From: an archaeon | GTDB lineage: Archaea > EX4484-52 > WAPT01 | DNA length: 41,573 bases | Assembly (NCBI GenBank): GCA_029258795.1 | Contig: JAPDKB010000006.1 | Location: forward strand, 1-41,573 | Direction of reading: 5' to 3' | Shown here: piece by piece, positions 33,520 to 41,573 of the stretch | How the letters are laid out: each line of letters starts with the position of its first letter | How positions within the stretch are numbered: position 1 is the stretch's first letter | Program-made: the position numbers and the translations under genes | The notes under the pieces: generated by a model | The model's database searches: none | Seen by the model: only the letters and a program-made list of their open reading frames with translations | What the model was told of the DNA's origin: nothing

Positions 33520-33548
33520 TTGACAAAATACGACCTGCTTGTTATATT
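33520..33548 (+). promoter_or_regulatory. Promoter of the restriction-modification operon
   Basis: TTGACA at 33520-33525, 17-nt spacer, TATATT at 33543-33548. The leader of about 60 nt carries AAAGGAGGG before hsdM. The 200 bases before it (33320-33519) are AT-rich and hold nothing I can name. Confidence 0.8.
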
Positions 33549-33601: not shown

Positions 33602-33617
33602 AAGAAAGGAGGGAATG

Positions 33618-35375
33618 ATGCTGCCGAGATGGCTTGAAAGGAGGTATGGGGTTTTGTGGGAGGAGTTTGGGGAAAGGGAGTTCAGGTTTGAGGAGGCGAA
33701 GAGGGTGTTGCTGGAGCAAATGGAGGATGATGAGGAGCAGGTGAATGCCATCCTCAATGAACTCAAAAAGAGGGGGGTGCTGGAGGTAAAGGCGGACCCG
33801 GAGGATGCGAGGAAGAAGATTTACAGATTGAAGAGCAGGGAGAAAATAGTTTCTCAATTGCTTCTTTTCAATGAGGAGAAACTCACAAGGGGAGAACTGG
33901 AGGCACTTTTAAAGAGAGCCGCAGACTTGATAAGAACCAGAGTGGATTACACGTTCATACTCGTTCTCTTATTTTACAAAAGGATTTGCGACAAGTGGAA
34001 AAAGGAATACGAGGAGGCATACCGGGAGGCACTGCAGGATGGGTTGAGTAAAGAGGAGGCGGAAAAGGAGGCAAAAAGCACCGCATACCACGATTTTGAT
34101 ATTCCAGAAGAATATCTGTGGGATAACCTGAGAAAAAATCCTGCAGAACTGCCTGAGAGATTCTCCTCTGCAATGAAAGCCCTTGCCGAGAAAAATCCGG
34201 ACCTGAGGGATGTTTTTGAGAATATTGATTTTATACAGTTCACCCAGAGCAGGGAAAATGCGGAAATTTTGAGACAACTTGTGGAACTCTTCAGTTCCCG
34301 TTCCCTTCACAATGTCTCCCCCGATATCCTGGGGGATGCATACGAGTGGATACTCCGATACTTTGCACCACAGAAGGCAAAAGAGGGGGAGGTTTACACT
34401 CCAAGAGAGGTGATAAAACTCATGGTGGAAATCCTTGACCCCATTCCCCACGAAAGGGTTTACGACCCTGCATGTGGTTCAGGAGGAATGCTTATTGTCG
34501 CGTATAAGCACGTGGAGGAGGAGAGGGGAAAGAGCGAGGCGGACAAACTCTTTCTTTACGGTGAAGAGATAAACCCGAAGACCCTTGCACTGGCAAGAAT
34601 GAACCTTTATATACACGAGATAAAAAATGCACAGTTGAGGCAGGGGGATACACTCCTCCGCCCGAAGTTTAAAGAAAAGTTTGATGTTATCATCACAAAT
34701 CCACCCTGGAACCAGAAGGGATACGATGAAAAAACACTCAAAAAGGGAGAATTCTGGAAAGAAAGATTTAAATATGGATTCCCGGCAAAGCAGTCCGCAG
34801 ACTGGGCATGGATACAGCATCTCATAGCATCTGCGAAAGAGAAAGGAAGAATAGGGGTTGTGATTGACAACGGGGCGCTTTTCAGGGGAGGGAAGGAGAA
34901 GGTTATAAGAAGCGGGGTTATTGAGGATGACCTGATTGAATGCGTGGTACTGCTTCCTGAAAAACTCTTTTACAACACGGGAGCGCCGGGAGCGATAATA
35001 ATTTTAAACATGGACAAACCCGAAGAGAGAAGGAATAAAATCCTTTTCATAAACGCAAGCAGGGAATACGAACAGCATCCTGAGGTGAGGAAGTTAAACA
35101 GACTGGGGGATAAGCACATCGAAAAAATCGTTGAGGCATACCGGAAGTTTGCAGAGATTGAGGGATTTTCAAGACCTGTCCCTGTGGAGGAAATAAAGGA
35201 GAATGATTACAACCTCAACGTAACCCTCTACGTCTTCCCGGAAGAGGATGAAGAACCCATAGACGTTTCCTCCGAATGGAAGGAACTCCAGAAACTTGAG
35301 ACCGAACTTGAAAAACTGGAAGAAAAAATCAAAAACCACCTCCACGAACTGGAATACCTGAAAGATGAGGAATGA
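33618..35375 (+). CDS. hsdM: Type I restriction-modification DNA methyltransferase subunit HsdM with an N-terminal winged-helix extension
   Basis: About 585 residues. Residues 1-75 look like a winged helix (FRFEEAKRVLLEQ, NAILNELKKRGVLEVKADP, then KKIYRL). After this comes the HsdM N-terminal helical domain (LKRAADLIRTRVDYTFILVLLFYKRICDKW) and the N6-adenine methyltransferase core: GEVYTPREVIKLMVEIL, SAM motif I YDPACGSGGML (about 282-292), catalytic NPPW (about 361-364), and KLFYNTGAPGAIIILN. A C-terminal coiled coil (LQKLETELEKLEEKIKNHL) probably contacts HsdS. Of the two ATGs, 33618 is better spaced from GGAGG. HsdS lies 5.3 kb downstream; no HsdR is in the window. Confidence 0.93.
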   Translation: MLPRWLERRYGVLWEEFGEREFRFEEAKRVLLEQMEDDEEQVNAILNELKKRGVLEVKADPEDARKKIYRLKSREKIVSQLLLFNEEKLTRGELEALLKRAADLIRTRVDYTFILVLLFYKRICDKWKKEYEEAYREALQDGLSKEEAEKEAKSTAYHDFDIPEEYLWDNLRKNPAELPERFSSAMKALAEKNPDLRDVFENIDFIQFTQSRENAEILRQLVELFSSRSLHNVSPDILGDAYEWILRYFAPQKAKEGEVYTPREVIKLMVEILDPIPHERVYDPACGSGGMLIVAYKHVEEERGKSEADKLFLYGEEINPKTLALARMNLYIHEIKNAQLRQGDTLLRPKFKEKFDVIITNPPWNQKGYDEKTLKKGEFWKERFKYGFPAKQSADWAWIQHLIASAKEKGRIGVVIDNGALFRGGKEKVIRSGVIEDDLIECVVLLPEKLFYNTGAPGAIIILNMDKPEERRNKILFINASREYEQHPEVRKLNRLGDKHIEKIVEAYRKFAEIEGFSRPVPVEEIKENDYNLNVTLYVFPEEDEEPIDVSSEWKELQKLETELEKLEEKIKNHLHELEYLKDEE

Positions 35376-35421: not shown

Positions 35422-36015
35422 ATGAAACTGGGTAAGGAGAATGTAGATAGAATATTTAAGGCACTTGAGAGGCAGATTGAAATCCACGGGGGAAAACCGG
35501 TCTCCCTTGTGGTTATAGGTGGAACTGCGCTTGTGGTTCAGGAAGTTACTTCCCGAACTACCAGGGATGTGGACATACTGGGAGAGGCGATTGAAAAAGA
35601 GGGAAGAGTAGAAATTCGGAAAATGGAGGAGATTCCCGAATTTTTGAAAAAGGCGGCGGCTGTGGTTCAGAGAGATTTTAATCTTCCGGAGAACTGGCTC
35701 AATACCGGTCCTGCATCTCAAATAGATCTTGGGCTGCCTCCAGGATTTGAATCAAGGCTTGTGAGAAAGAAGTACGGAGATTATCTCACGGTGTATTTTG
35801 CCTCCAGGATTGATCTTATACATTTCAAACTTTTCGCTGCTGTGGATAGGGGTGGATACCATGTTGAGGATTTAAAACTGCTCAATCCTTCAGAGGAAGA
35901 AATGGAACAGGCGGCAAGATGGGTTTTAACACATGATGTCTCTCCAGAATTTCGAGAAATTCTTAAACAATGTCTCAAGGAGTTGGGATATGGAAAAGTC
36001 ACTGAAAGAATTTAA
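35422..36015 (+). CDS. Nucleotidyltransferase-fold protein (DUF6036/AbiEii-like)
   Basis: A 197-residue protein. The N-terminal half has PVSLVVIGGTALVVQEVTSRT then TRDVDIL: the GG-T-x-L motif (33-37) plus the D-x-D pair Asp49/Asp51, typical of the polymerase-beta nucleotidyltransferase fold. The later IDLGLPPG and YFASRIDLIHFKLFAAVDR with DDL-like VEDLKLL match the DUF6036 and AbiEii-like minimal groups. Such proteins are often one half of a two-gene module whose partner has a winged helix, as here. It could modify tRNA or protein; activity is unproven. It overlaps the next gene by 26 bases. Confidence 0.75.
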   Translation: MKLGKENVDRIFKALERQIEIHGGKPVSLVVIGGTALVVQEVTSRTTRDVDILGEAIEKEGRVEIRKMEEIPEFLKKAAAVVQRDFNLPENWLNTGPASQIDLGLPPGFESRLVRKKYGDYLTVYFASRIDLIHFKLFAAVDRGGYHVEDLKLLNPSEEEMEQAARWVLTHDVSPEFREILKQCLKELGYGKVTERI

Positions 36016-36922
36016 ATCTCGCTTTATTGACCTTCTTCTGGAGGTCATGTGGAGGCAGTGGACGGCTCTCGGGATTGCCTCCCATGTGGAACCGGAGGAT
36101 AAGTGGTTGATAGACCCTGAGGCGCTTCTTTTTGGTGTGTTTTTTGTCCGTGATAGGGACAAAAGGCTTTTTGAGGCTGTGGAGGAGTGGGTTCGTGAAA
36201 ATCACAGGTTTATAAGCACCGCGCGAATGAAAAAAATAGAGAAAAGTATTTATGGCAGGGCTTTCAGGCATGATTTTATTAGGAAATGGGAAGATGCAAA
36301 GTATATTCGTTTATATTACACTCATGTTATATCCACACAGAGAGAAAATAAAGCAAAAGAAATTCTTGCCCCTGTTTCTCTCCTTCACCCCCCTCTTCTT
36401 CGTCTCCGGTTAAGAGAAATCTTGGGCCAAAATCCACGAGTGGAAATTCTCATATACTTCTTATACCATGATACCGGAAATTCTCTCTCCATTGCAAAGG
36501 AGGTTTTTCTTGACCAGAAGTCCGTTTATAATGTGCTTGAAGCCTGGGTAAAGGTGGGGATGCTTGAAAAGGTGGGAGGGAAGAAAAAGGGATATCGTAT
36601 AAATTCAGAGGCAAGAAAAACATGGTTAAAAATACTCGGGCTCAATAGACTTCCCTCCTATCTCAACTGGGGAAGGCTTTATATTTCACTCTCAATAATC
36701 CTCAAAGCCCTTGAAACTCCTCCATGGAATAAAGATGTTTATCTTCTTTCCTCTCTATTTCGTGATCTTTATGGTGAAATTAAGGAAACAGCAGGAGAGA
36801 TATCCACTCCCCCCTCACCTGAACTTTATCAGGGAGAGGAATTTTTTGAGCCTTTCTCCCGATACCTCATCGGACTTCTGGAAGGAATTATGGGAAAGAA
36901 GAAAAAGAGAGAAAAGATATGA
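35990..36922 (+). CDS. Winged-helix protein paired with the nucleotidyltransferase
   Basis: A 310-residue protein starting at ATG 35990 with AAGGAG 7 nt upstream. The N-terminal half is mainly helical (SLKEFKSRFIDLLLEVMWRQ, WLIDPEALLFGVFFV). Residues about 155-220 form a winged helix: ILIYFLYHDTGNSLSIAKEVFLDQKSVYNVLEAWVKVGMLEKV with the basic wing GGKKKGYRIN. The LIDPEALLF segment is typical of helical proteins encoded next to DUF6036 nucleotidyltransferases. I infer an antitoxin or regulatory role for the pair; I do not recognise a named family. It ends 7 bases before the first of two palindromes. Confidence 0.6.
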   Translation: MEKSLKEFKSRFIDLLLEVMWRQWTALGIASHVEPEDKWLIDPEALLFGVFFVRDRDKRLFEAVEEWVRENHRFISTARMKKIEKSIYGRAFRHDFIRKWEDAKYIRLYYTHVISTQRENKAKEILAPVSLLHPPLLRLRLREILGQNPRVEILIYFLYHDTGNSLSIAKEVFLDQKSVYNVLEAWVKVGMLEKVGGKKKGYRINSEARKTWLKILGLNRLPSYLNWGRLYISLSIILKALETPPWNKDVYLLSSLFRDLYGEIKETAGEISTPPSPELYQGEEFFEPFSRYLIGLLEGIMGKKKKREKI

Positions 36923-36928
36923 ATGCTC

Positions 36929-36990
36929 TAAGTCAGACTTTCCTGACTTACAGAGGGAGAAACCTTTCTAAGTCAGAGAATCCTGACTTA
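36929..36990. repeat. Two perfect palindromes, 40-base period, upstream of the KAP gene
   Basis: TAAGTCAG (36929-36936), six bases, CTGACTTA (36943-36950); then the same arms again at 36969-36976 and 36983-36990. Flanking AGAGGGA/GAGGGAAA is also repeated, so the copied unit is about 30 bases. They lie 40 bases ahead of the KAP promoter -35 box: likely dimer-binding operator sites or small hairpin elements. Confidence 0.85.
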
Positions 36991-37029: not shown

Positions 37030-37058
37030 TTGAAAGAGGTGAGGCATTCTAATAAAAT
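37030..37058 (+). promoter_or_regulatory. Promoter of the KAP NTPase gene
   Basis: TTGAAA at 37030-37035, 17-nt spacer, TAAAAT at 37053-37058. The leader of about 23 nt carries GGAAGGAAAGAG before the ATG at 37088. Confidence 0.7.
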
Positions 37059-37087: not shown

Positions 37088-38950
37088 ATGGGTAAAGAGA
37101 ATAAAAAAGTCAGATTTCTTCATGATGTACCGATAGATAGGGATGAATTAGGAGTTCATTCTCGCCTTGCGAATGTACTGAAGGAGATGATAAAAGATGT
37201 GACAGATGATTCAAAAAGACGCTCTGGAAATAGGCTTAAAAATGTCATTGGGTTATTTGGCGTATGGGGTTCTGGAAAGTCAACGTTAATTAAGATATTG
37301 GAAAATAAAATAAAAAATAAAGGCAAAATTTTTGTATTCGATTCCTGGTCACATAAAGACGAGTTTATAAAGCGGGCTTTTCTTATCAATCTGGCAGAAT
37401 TTCTCCAATTAGGGGATATTTCTTTAAAGAAATTTTTAGAATTGCAGAAAGAAAATGAAGAAGATAAAGATATTACAGTAAAAAATTATTTAATCTCAAA
37501 AATTTCTCAACAGAAAATTACAAAAAAGAACGCCCCCAAAATTTCTATCTCGCTTTTCTTGGTAATTTCTTTATTGATACTTACTTCATTGAGTAATTTA
37601 TTAGCAAATCTATGTTCTTTTGCTACTCCTAAAACAATTACTGGCATAGAAGTAGGAGTTATAATAATAACATCTATAATTTTATATGGAATCTTCCGAA
37701 GAAAAAAAGAATGCTTTTCTTCTATAATTGCACCCTTTGTGTCAGGGACATTGGACGTTGAAACTTCACAAATTACTTCACAAACGATGGAATTCACAAA
37801 CTACGAGTTTCAGAGATTGTTTAAATTCTTGATTTCGGAATATTTTAAAAAAGAATCTTTGGACTCTCTAATCATTGTTTTTGATAATTTGGATAGGGTA
37901 GATGATGAAACAGTTTTAAAATTTCTTTCAATAATACATTCATTAGTAGAAAGTAAAAAAGAGAAAGATTTTGAAAATAAAATAGTTTTTATTGTGCCTA
38001 TCGATAAACAACGTCTTCTTTCCATTTTCAATAAGATGGCAACAGAAAATGAAAAATCTACATTTGCTGAAGACTTCGTGGAGAAAATGTTTCCTTATTC
38101 TGTTGAAATTCCCAATATAAAGCAGTCAAAATGGAGAGATTTCTTCAAAAATAAATTCAAAGAGGCCTTTTATGGTGTTAAAAGAAAGCATATGGATTTA
38201 GATTTAGAAGTCATTATTCGAATATTTCTTGCAGGAATTGAGGAAAGCAACGAAAATCTTACTCCCCGAGAAATTATATATTTCATCAATCATATAGTAT
38301 CAAATTATCTTTATTGGGGAAATAAGATAGATATAAAGCATCAAGCAACGTATGTGGCACTTTGTAAATACCAACCTCAAATAATATATGAACTGCAAAG
38401 GGGAGAGAGGAGTTTTATGGAGCACAATGAAATTATTAAAAAAGTGCTGGATTATACCTCTTCGGACGCTCTATTCAAAGATCTGCTTAAACAGATCTTC
38501 AAGACAGAAAGAGTACATAGTATTCTTTACAAAGATAAATGTGCTAAATATTTTGAGGAAGGGGATATTGAAAATGCGCGAAATTTGGTTTCCAAAATTG
38601 GGGATCCCTCTTCTATAAAAGAAATATGGGAAAGCGTATTAGAAGATGCAGAAGAAGGACTAAAATCTGATATAAGAATTTTGGGGAATATAGCCTATGT
38701 TTTCTCCGTGCTTTGTGAAGAAGAAAAGGTTTGTGGAGAAGCAAAGGAAGAAAACATATTACAGATATTGAGGAGCCGATTAAAAGAACTGATAAGAAAT
38801 AGAGAGGCAATATATACGAGTCTTGATGCAACGGCAGGAAAAGGAATAAAGTGGCTGCTATTAGCAGAAGAAGAGAAAAAAATAAAAATGTTGATAGCGA
38901 AGTTGTTAGATGCTTTTATAGAAGAAGCTGAAAGAAGGGAGGCGTCATGA
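37088..38950 (+). CDS. KAP-family P-loop NTPase with two inserted membrane segments
   Basis: A 620-residue protein. Walker A is LFGVWGSGKST (Gly58-Thr66), followed by FDSWSHKDEFIKRAFLINLA, typical of KAP proteins. Between Walker A and B lie two hydrophobic segments (about 152-178, SISLFLVISLLILTSLSNLL, and about 184-204, EVGVIIITSIILYGIF), the KAP hallmark. Walker B is LIIVFDNLDRVDDE (Asp266, Asp269), then IVFIVPIDKQRLLSIF and the LTPREIIYFINHIV lid region. The C-terminal 200 residues are helical. KAP NTPases are membrane-associated STAND-like ATPases found in phage-defence islands. Codons are AT-rich compared with hsdM. It overlaps the next gene by 4 bases. Confidence 0.88.
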   Translation: MGKENKKVRFLHDVPIDRDELGVHSRLANVLKEMIKDVTDDSKRRSGNRLKNVIGLFGVWGSGKSTLIKILENKIKNKGKIFVFDSWSHKDEFIKRAFLINLAEFLQLGDISLKKFLELQKENEEDKDITVKNYLISKISQQKITKKNAPKISISLFLVISLLILTSLSNLLANLCSFATPKTITGIEVGVIIITSIILYGIFRRKKECFSSIIAPFVSGTLDVETSQITSQTMEFTNYEFQRLFKFLISEYFKKESLDSLIIVFDNLDRVDDETVLKFLSIIHSLVESKKEKDFENKIVFIVPIDKQRLLSIFNKMATENEKSTFAEDFVEKMFPYSVEIPNIKQSKWRDFFKNKFKEAFYGVKRKHMDLDLEVIIRIFLAGIEESNENLTPREIIYFINHIVSNYLYWGNKIDIKHQATYVALCKYQPQIIYELQRGERSFMEHNEIIKKVLDYTSSDALFKDLLKQIFKTERVHSILYKDKCAKYFEEGDIENARNLVSKIGDPSSIKEIWESVLEDAEEGLKSDIRILGNIAYVFSVLCEEEKVCGEAKEENILQILRSRLKELIRNREAIYTSLDATAGKGIKWLLLAEEEKKIKMLIAKLLDAFIEEAERREAS

Positions 38951-40710
38951 GTGAAAGATTTAAAAAAATGGCCGAGGGAATAAAAGAAATTTTAAGGGAT
39001 AAGGCATTACGAGATATTTTTAAGGATGTATTAAAAGAGAAGAGAAAAAACTTGGATGATACTGTATTTGAAAAAGTGTATAAGGAATTATACTCTACTT
39101 TGGAACTTCTCGGCGATGAAGATATCTTGAGTGAAATCTTTGATGAAGAAGTGGTGAGCCGGTTTATGGATATAGTGATTAAACGAGTAAAAAATACTAC
39201 TTTACAATCATCAGAGATTGATTTTATTGATGAATACGATACAAAAATTTTATGTAATGAAAAAATTATTGAAGGGAAGGATTTTCTGGCTAAGAAATAT
39301 GACCTTTTTATAGAGACTTTTAAATCATTTATTATAAAAGAGTTGATATCTAAGATTTTTACTCTGTCACAATCTCCTGGAGCGAAAAAGTTTATTACTA
39401 ATAAGCCATTACTTGAAATACTTTATTTTGTCACATTATACTTATATTCTTTAGACAAAGTAGATTTACTAAAGAAACACAAAAATCTATATGAGTATGT
39501 TTTATTTGAACATTTTATTCTTTCTAAAAGGCTAACAGATAATAAAATAGAAAACGATGTAGCAATAATTATTTCCATCTTGTGGATTTTGTTACATAAA
39601 GAAATCGACTTAAACTTAAATGGTAATGTGGATTTACGACAAGACGGATACAGAGAGCGTACAAGATTTTCTATAAAGGCATTGCTTTCTCAGATTTTTT
39701 CTAAAGTTTTGCGGATGGAAGAAGAAAAGATAATCTATTACCTGACAAAACTCGTTGATTTGAATCTCTTATATAAATTTCTTGATGGACTGGAAAAATT
39801 TGAAATTAATGAGGAGATTAAAGAAAAATTTGCAAGATGCACGATTACGGTTTTAGAAAATATCAATACACAAAGCGCCATTTCAGATAGCCATATAGAA
39901 ATTCTTACTGATTTTCATAAATTTTTCTATAGTAAAGCAAGAGAAAAATATGAGTCTTTATTAAAAGCACTATGCGATAATAATAAATATAAACCTGTTT
40001 TTGAAAAAATCATATTAAACAATTTATTAAAAGAAGATGTCGAAATATTATGGGAAGAATCCCTGCTATTCTTACTGCGAACGAGTATTGGAAATAATTT
40101 ATTAAGTACAAAAACAATGAGAAAAGAAATAATAAAATTTTTGCAGCAAAGGGTACAGGAAATAAAAGGTCTTTTTGATGAAGAAGAGGAGCATTACATC
40201 TATTTAGTGATACAGGAATTAATAAAGAACTACAATGAAAATTTAAATTTAACATTTACAGGTTTTGGTACAAAACTATTAAAATATATTGAAGATTTTG
40301 TTATGTCTAAAACTACCACCGAAATGTGGCCTATAGTGGAGTTTGTACTTTCACATTTGGAAAATATTTTCAGCTCAAAGGATATTGAAAACTTTATTCA
40401 CCAATTTTTGGGTTTAATAACAGAAAAGTTCGACTCTTTAAACATACAGAATGTGAAACAAATATTAGAAAAAATTCAAAAATATATTTCCCGAAAAATC
40501 CTACAGGAATATTTACAAAAATTAGGAAGAAAACTGATCGCCCAAGAATTTCCTCGGGAAGGAATCAGACTTTTTAGAAAACTATTAGAAATTGCAAAAA
40601 GATTTAAAGATACTATAAATCTAAGGGGAAACCTGAAAACTTATCTGCAAAATCACCCTGAGGATGAGGAATGTCATAAACTTCTAAATATGCTGGAGAA
40701 AAAATCATGA
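38947..40710 (+). CDS. Large helical protein of unknown function, partner of the KAP NTPase
   Basis: A 587-residue protein, translationally coupled (ATGA) to both the KAP gene before and hsdS after. Composition is dominated by Lys, Glu, Leu, Ile and Phe, and nearly all of it looks alpha-helical, possibly as HEAT-like or TPR-like repeats (for example KNLDDTVFEKVYKELYSTLE, VEFVLSHLENIF, GRKLIAQEFPREGIRLFRKL). I see no catalytic motif, signal peptide or membrane segment. Local GC is low (20 of 60 bases at 39361-39420, against 29 of 60 at 12841-12900), suggesting acquisition from another source. It could be a sensor or scaffold for the KAP ATPase; this is inference. Confidence 0.75.
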   Translation: MSERFKKMAEGIKEILRDKALRDIFKDVLKEKRKNLDDTVFEKVYKELYSTLELLGDEDILSEIFDEEVVSRFMDIVIKRVKNTTLQSSEIDFIDEYDTKILCNEKIIEGKDFLAKKYDLFIETFKSFIIKELISKIFTLSQSPGAKKFITNKPLLEILYFVTLYLYSLDKVDLLKKHKNLYEYVLFEHFILSKRLTDNKIENDVAIIISILWILLHKEIDLNLNGNVDLRQDGYRERTRFSIKALLSQIFSKVLRMEEEKIIYYLTKLVDLNLLYKFLDGLEKFEINEEIKEKFARCTITVLENINTQSAISDSHIEILTDFHKFFYSKAREKYESLLKALCDNNKYKPVFEKIILNNLLKEDVEILWEESLLFLLRTSIGNNLLSTKTMRKEIIKFLQQRVQEIKGLFDEEEEHYIYLVIQELIKNYNENLNLTFTGFGTKLLKYIEDFVMSKTTTEMWPIVEFVLSHLENIFSSKDIENFIHQFLGLITEKFDSLNIQNVKQILEKIQKYISRKILQEYLQKLGRKLIAQEFPREGIRLFRKLLEIAKRFKDTINLRGNLKTYLQNHPEDEECHKLLNMLEKKS

Positions 40711-41573
40711 GGAATATGAGATTTGGGCCTTGGGAAAAGATAAAATTAGGAAAAATAATAGAAATTGTGAAAGGGAAAAAAGTTCGTCTTGTCTCTTGTC
40801 AACAGAATTTCGTTACCATGCCATATCTTACAACAGAGTATTTAAGAACCGGAACCCCTAATCAGTTTGTATTAAATCCTGAAGAAGGAATTATTGTGGA
40901 AAAGAAAGATATACTGCTACTATGGGACGGTTCTAATGCTGGTGAGTTTTTCTTATTCTCGGGTGAAAAAGGCATCTTATCTTCTACAATGTGCAAACTG
41001 CTTATTAAAGAAAAAGTCGAAAAGTTGTTTTTTTACTATCTTTTGAAATTTTATGTAGAAGGACGTTTAAAGTTACAAACAAAAGGTACAGGTATTCCCC
41101 ATGTGGATCGTAATACTTTTATGGAAATTCTCATCCCCCTTCCTCCTCTCCCTGAGCAAAAGAAAATTGCGGAGATACTGGGGGATGTGGATGAGGCGAT
41201 TGAGAAGGTGGAGAAGATTATTGAGAAAACGGAAAGAATTAAAAAAGGATTGATGCGCGAACTCCTGACCCGTGGAACAGGACATAAAGAGTTTAAAAAG
41301 ACAGAAATAGGAACGATACCGAAGGAGTGGAAGGTGGTGAGATTGGGGGAGGTGATAACCGATATTCTTACGGGAGCCACTCCTTTACGAACTGAAAGGA
41401 AATATTGGGTGAATGGGAAAATCCCTTGGTTGACAAATAATGAAGTGGAAGACAACAAAATCAATTATATTTACGACACACGAGAGAAAATTACTGATAT
41501 TGCTTTAAAAGAAACAAATGTAAAACTCATTCCCGAAAACTCCTTAATTCTTTCTCTTACTGCTTCGGTAGGA
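40707..41573 (+). CDS. hsdS: Type I restriction-modification specificity subunit HsdS (truncated by window end)
   Basis: An open frame of 289 codons runs off the window. It starts at ATG 40707, overlapping the previous stop. Target recognition domain 1 spans about residues 5-150 (PWEKIKLGKIIEIVKGKKV, VEKKDILLLWDGSNAGEFFL, GTGIPHVDRNTFMEILIPL), then the conserved region PLPPLPEQKKIAEILGDVDE with its coiled coil IEKVEKIIEKTERIKKGLMRELLTRG. Domain 2 begins at IGTIPKEWKVVRLGEV. This two-domain layout is classical HsdS. Domain 1 is AT-rich while the conserved region is GC-richer, a sign of domain exchange. It sets the DNA recognition sequence for HsdM. Confidence 0.93.
   Translation, partial: MRNMRFGPWEKIKLGKIIEIVKGKKVRLVSCQQNFVTMPYLTTEYLRTGTPNQFVLNPEEGIIVEKKDILLLWDGSNAGEFFLFSGEKGILSSTMCKLLIKEKVEKLFFYYLLKFYVEGRLKLQTKGTGIPHVDRNTFMEILIPLPPLPEQKKIAEILGDVDEAIEKVEKIIEKTERIKKGLMRELLTRGTGHKEFKKTEIGTIPKEWKVVRLGEVITDILTGATPLRTERKYWVNGKIPWLTNNEVEDNKINYIYDTREKITDIALKETNVKLIPENSLILSLTASVG

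Follow-up and report, generated by a model that had tools for sequence, protein, structure and literature searches.

A two-gene KAP-family NTPase, probably a split long KAP, directly before hsdS in a type I restriction-modification locus

The window, the whole stretch of 41,573 nt that was analysed, ends in components of a type I restriction-modification (RM) system, of which hsdM is present and hsdS is present up to the contig end. Directly before hsdS lie a gene for a KAP-family NTPase and a gene for an all-helical protein. The features of the locus are the following.

33615..35375, + strand: hsdM, type I N6-adenine methylase, 586 aa (Pfam N6_Mtase, E-value 1e-114; HsdM_N, 6e-17; PADLOC MTase_I, 8e-110)
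35422..36015, + strand: DUF6036 nucleotidyltransferase, 197 aa, between hsdM and the KAP gene (Pfam DUF6036, 3e-10, over the cut-off; AbiEii weak)
35933..36922, + strand: 329-aa HTH protein (TrmB-like HTH, E-value 0.002, below the cut-off)
36929..36990, no strand: two exact palindromes TAAGTCAG-N6-CTGACTTA, 40 bp apart (0.1 expected)
37030..37058, + strand: promoter-like TTGAAA-17-TAAAAT before the KAP gene (10/12 matches; a consensus match only)
37088..38950, + strand: KAP-family P-loop NTPase, 620 aa, very probable N-terminal part of a split KAP (Pfam KAP_NTPase, 3e-21)
37259..37285, + strand: Walker A, residues 58-66, GVWGSGKST (invariant family columns)
37541..37699, + strand: two predicted transmembrane helices, residues ~152-172 and ~184-204 (19-residue hydropathy maxima 2.3 and 2.1)
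37868..37900, + strand: Walker B region, residues 261-271, LIIVFDNLDRV (D266, N267, D269 and R270 invariant)
38947..40710, + strand: all-helical 587-aa protein, ARM/HEAT-like solenoid, very probable C-terminal part of a split KAP (AlphaFold2; homolog L123:10978-12705; long-KAP profile match)
40707..41573, + strand: hsdS, ending with the contig (Pfam Methylase_S, 1e-32)

A preliminary description of this DNA had given the KAP and 587-aa genes these coordinates, with overlaps of 4 bases between the two and with hsdS. Both overlaps are indeed present and consist of ATGA (38947-38950 and 40707-40710), and Shine-Dalgarno-like sequences are found at the starts of all three genes. As judged from the sequence, the KAP-helical pair is coupled to hsdS. 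The description had further placed the pair between hsdM and hsdS, translated within the restriction operon. This holds on the hsdS side, which the pair directly precedes and overlaps, but towards hsdM two more genes, a gap and a promoter-like site intervene. A promoter-like TTGACA-17-TATATT (33520-33548) also precedes hsdM. The gap of 165 bp separating the 329-aa HTH gene from the KAP gene holds both the palindromes and the second promoter-like site, so that the KAP gene may be transcribed separately from hsdM. The palindromes are a possible operator; they occur neither elsewhere in the bin nor ahead of the second split pair described below. The DUF6036 nucleotidyltransferase gene overlaps the HTH gene (35422-36922), the start of which is uncertain, a plausible in-frame ATG lying about 57 bp downstream; these two genes between hsdM and the KAP gene may form a separate toxin-antitoxin-like or defence pair. 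The GC content drops from about 0.44 to 0.31-0.35 across the KAP gene, the helical gene and hsdS, and this stretch may therefore have arrived separately from hsdM.

The contig stops inside hsdS and no hsdR is visible beside it; the sole HSDR_N of the bin is in another RM locus, on contig C1. The bin has a second type I locus (L011:1878-11946, G000:C1) with an hsdM 48% identical to that of the window, a 368-aa and a 487-aa gene of unknown identity separating hsdM from hsdS, and a 322-aa gene preceding hsdR. The slot after hsdM may thus carry variable cargo.

The window corresponds to the whole of contig C8, which encodes an FtsK with a gamma domain, LptD, PilQ and LPS glycosyltransferases. As read from the sequences, contig C1 of the same bin encodes an archaeal-type EF-2, and the relatives of the bin encode ABCE1-like proteins. 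Four genomes examined from the clade of the bin lack this FtsK. Contig C8 is most likely a mis-binned contig from a diderm bacterium in an otherwise archaeal bin. Searches among the relatives of the bin carry no weight, because the contig would be bacterial and the clade the wrong one.

The KAP_NTPase domain exhibits 76.3 bits against a Pfam cut-off of 20. The Walker A motif (58-66), the Walker B Asp266 and the two membrane insertions that had been read in this protein are borne out: the motifs fall on invariant columns, with the family-invariant residues G58, W60-S65, D266, N267, D269, R270, R394 and N401 all kept, and two hydrophobic stretches (residues ~147-173 and ~183-205) both lie between Walker A and Walker B. 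In an alignment with the 1118-column profile of long KAPs, the window KAP covers columns 10-585.

Nearly every intact KAP relative is one continuous chain of 1,045-1,239 aa whose C-terminal half is helical, and the shorter relatives are, as far as seen, contig-edge or broken copies. The two window proteins (620 + 587 aa) add up to the length of one such chain, with the same parts in the same order in two genes instead of one. The preliminary description had recognised no motif in the 587-aa protein, and we likewise found no confident match in Pfam, NCBIfam or PADLOC, which speaks against a housekeeping identity; the protein is nevertheless probably the split-off C-terminal half of a KAP. Motif scans of viral contigs returned no close relatives, and those of genome contigs and of plasmids returned none for the helical protein.

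Among 395 genomes from a single phylum, a second two-gene KAP was detected (L123), of 639 and 575 aa. Its KAP is 35% identical to the window KAP (E-values 5e-70 and 2e-74), and its 575-aa partner (L123:10978-12705) follows almost without a gap. The alignment of the 575-aa and 587-aa proteins is collinear over the full length (BLASTP E-value 1.6e-9), with a score of 245 against 74 +/- 11 for shuffled sequences, none of 1000 of which reaches it (Z 15). By these comparisons the 575-aa protein is a true homolog of the window helical protein. A tree of the NTPase domains places the two split KAPs as sisters (support 0.99), with the long KAP L027 next to them (0.80). A single gene fission is therefore likely, and the simplest history of the two-gene form is that a long KAP was divided once and has stayed so. 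Upstream of the second pair are genes for a DpdE/DrmD-like SNF2 helicase and a DrmMI-like methylase, and downstream a gene for a DEAD/MZB helicase. The two pairs are the only split pairs known, and both adjoin methylation systems.

With the 587-aa protein as a single sequence, hhalign finds no match to the long-KAP profile (probability 0.9%); the C-terminal half of L027 alone, the nearest long KAP in the set, is also weak (5.4%). A rank test, in which 36 C-terminal halves of KAPs competed with 77 other proteins, puts the former closer to the 587-aa protein (p 9e-5; p 0.27 with the sequence reversed). The L123 homolog (h2) reversed scored alone above background in this test, from which it follows that helix-rich composition contributes to it. 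A two-sequence profile built from the window solenoid and the L123 solenoid gives a global, full-length alignment with the C-terminal half of the long KAPs, a set from which L027 was left out, with a probability of 86% and an E-value of 5.8e-7; the reversed control gives 0.2%. The local-mode match is weaker (26%; reversed, 0.9%). Both solenoids are moreover collinear with the C-terminus of the unsplit sister L027, a score reached by 0/1500 shuffles for each. As the single-sequence search fails and reversed h2 scores, the two-sequence profile is the main evidence for homology of the C-terminal part.

The AlphaFold2 model of the 587-aa protein is all helical and of low confidence (mean pLDDT 57, pTM 0.45), against a pLDDT of 78 for a model of the long KAP L080. 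In fold searches, both models weakly match generic ARM/HEAT solenoids with low TM-scores. That generic solenoids score alike, and that single-sequence hhalign finds no match, would suit a helical protein of other origin that replaced the KAP C-terminal half. We hold such a replacement to be very unlikely, in view of the full-length fit of the two-sequence profile with its low reversed control, the collinear match to L027 and the lengths that add up. The window KAP and the helical protein are thus very probably the split halves of a long KAP, as far as sequence comparison can tell. A frameshift or broken gene was considered and rejected: the open frame of the helical gene extends just five codons ahead of its ATG, a ribosome-binding site precedes each of the two genes, and the second pair, which has diverged from this one, has the two-gene form as well.

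The gene neighbourhoods of KAPs were surveyed in 80 loci, which came from scanning 84,980 species under the guidance of a profile. Two peptide patterns served to select these loci, and their flanks are uneven. Same-strand neighbours within 150 bp were counted as operon mates. A DNA methylase, of type I, II, IIG, III or DISARM-like systems, shares the KAP operon in 13/35 non-redundant loci. Three type I operons (L070, of Kangiella type; L080, of Alteromonas type; L092) exhibit the order hsdM-hsdS-KAP-hsdR. One-chain KAPs also follow type III mod-res pairs (L030, L035, L072, L084; directly in the last three), lie beside MmeI/Eco57I type IIG-like enzymes (L032, L034, L079), and occur with an EcoRV-type endonuclease and a D12 methylase (L031), with a DNA methylase (L100) and with a DISARM-like set (L095). 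In a Pfam scan (49/60 operon mates) methylases were common, and among the families listed for the 77 other genes of the KAP loci there was none. When the methylases already found were used as queries against all 4,102 ORFs of these loci, methylases turned up in KAP operons only. Fisher's test of 13/60 against 0/77 yields 1e-5, or 0.004 if four were missed; its control consists of other genes of the same loci, and defence genes in general cluster as well.

The survey thus confirms that KAP genes recur in RM operons, the two-gene form occurring in one unrelated genome. A fixed KAP/helical pair within type I operons, as the preliminary description had it, is upheld as far as the pair recurs at L123 beside methylation defence genes, but its position is not fixed: the slot between hsdM and hsdS was not found elsewhere, and the one-chain KAPs of the three type I operons lie between hsdS and hsdR. 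Two outcomes that the description had set against its reading, a housekeeping family for the helical protein and a pair found mostly apart and away from defence genes, were not observed. Two further observations concern individual loci. Upstream of the Alcanivorax hsdM-hsdS-KAP-hsdR operon, at L092:394-2083, lie an AbiEii-type toxin gene and its partner; the KAP gene of this locus has no match in E. coli genomes. A near-identical 1084-aa KAP, apparently carried by one mobile element, is found in many Bacteroidales species (L039-L064, L101, L102), with some of the copies broken.

A functional link between the KAP pair and the methylation system appears fairly probable to us. The competing reading is that the split pair is an independent defence unit merely located in an RM operon. 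Most KAP loci have no RM genes nearby, a KAP system is described as acting by itself (see Tmn below; PMC11846954), the GC content of the KAP-helical-hsdS stretch is below that of hsdM, and the pair has its own promoter-like site and palindromes. Against this stand the 4-bp overlap with hsdS, the sharing of operons between methylases of several kinds and KAPs of separate clades, and the methylation systems adjoining both known split pairs. We judge this independence to be a distinctly less likely, though serious, alternative.

Among known systems, Tmn of E. coli is a single-gene KAP NTPase with two transmembrane domains that acts against phages including T2 and P1; how it does so is described as unexplored (PMC11846954). 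Compared by description, the window pair resembles it in being a KAP-family NTPase with two transmembrane segments, Tmn being an anti-phage defence; it differs in that Tmn is a system on its own, whereas the window encodes two chains, within an RM operon. QatA (of qatABCD) and PifA share the KAP-type P-loop and are the best PADLOC matches of the window KAP (PifA 4e-10, QatA 3e-7), but the matches are short and N-terminal, and no qatBCD genes are seen in the window. Membership of Qat was rejected, the QatA equivalog scoring 22.7 bits against a cut-off of 600. PrrC, the product of an accessory gene that lies within the EcoprrI type IC locus, fires upon inhibition of the restriction enzyme (PMC12707154). 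It offers an analogy only, that of an accessory gene within a type I RM operon, since PrrC is an anticodon nuclease and the window has a membrane KAP. The neighbours of the L123 pair and of L095 resemble DrmMI and DpdE/DrmD of DISARM; the window by contrast has type I hsd genes, and the models used do not recognise KAP as a DISARM component. HsdM- and HsdS-like genes with an NTPase, and a weak mad8 match, recall MADS, membership of which was rejected (MAD2, 83.8 against a cut-off of 720; MAD5, 19.6 against 400).

With Tmn as a membrane KAP defence and PrrC as a guardian embedded in a type I locus, our preference is for a guardian or backup effector at the membrane, in which the solenoid would act as sensor or adaptor. 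Our main reading, to which we give a probability of about one half, is that the split Tmn-like KAP pair is one functional unit, an accessory, second-line membrane guardian of a methylation-based defence operon. Fission of a Tmn-like KAP would have given two chains, one an NTPase anchored in the membrane by two transmembrane helices, the other an alpha-solenoid. Translational coupling would make both chains together, and these would rejoin as a complex. The solenoid would then sense a restriction-linked trigger; candidates include a restriction complex that is engaged or inhibited, DNA breaks and phage proteins. In response the KAP domain, probably oligomeric and located at the inner membrane, would consume NTP and halt the infected cell, thereby backing up restriction. 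A membrane effector as the output of the pair is a tentative part of this proposal, and so is the abortive action linked to methylation state that the preliminary description had suggested. Alternatively, the pair might tether the restriction complex to the inner membrane, the entry site of phage DNA, and aid translocation or cleavage instead of killing the cell. Transmembrane helices in the NTPase with a solenoid suited to protein binding, a gene order mixed with the hsd genes, and the type III and DISARM-like neighbours would all fit such tethering; the many KAPs without RM genes do not, and we consider it quite unlikely.

KAP defence genes and guardians embedded in RM systems are already known. 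In the openly licensed papers searched we found no description of KAP genes as components of RM operons and none of a two-chain KAP; the two-chain form and the recurrence of KAPs across RM types do not seem to have been described. As a broader and rather doubtful extension, KAP membrane NTPases of one or two chains might be a general guardian module that type I, II, IIG, III and DISARM-like operons would have acquired on many occasions. Such a module would detect when the methylation system fails or is attacked and respond with a shutdown of the cell at the membrane, the solenoid serving as an exchangeable sensor. If KAP NTPases do partner RM systems, their trigger becomes testable, with phages carrying or lacking anti-restriction genes and with methylated versus unmethylated DNA. 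The two-chain form separates the NTPase from the solenoid, so that sensing and output can be tested singly, and it may ease structural work.
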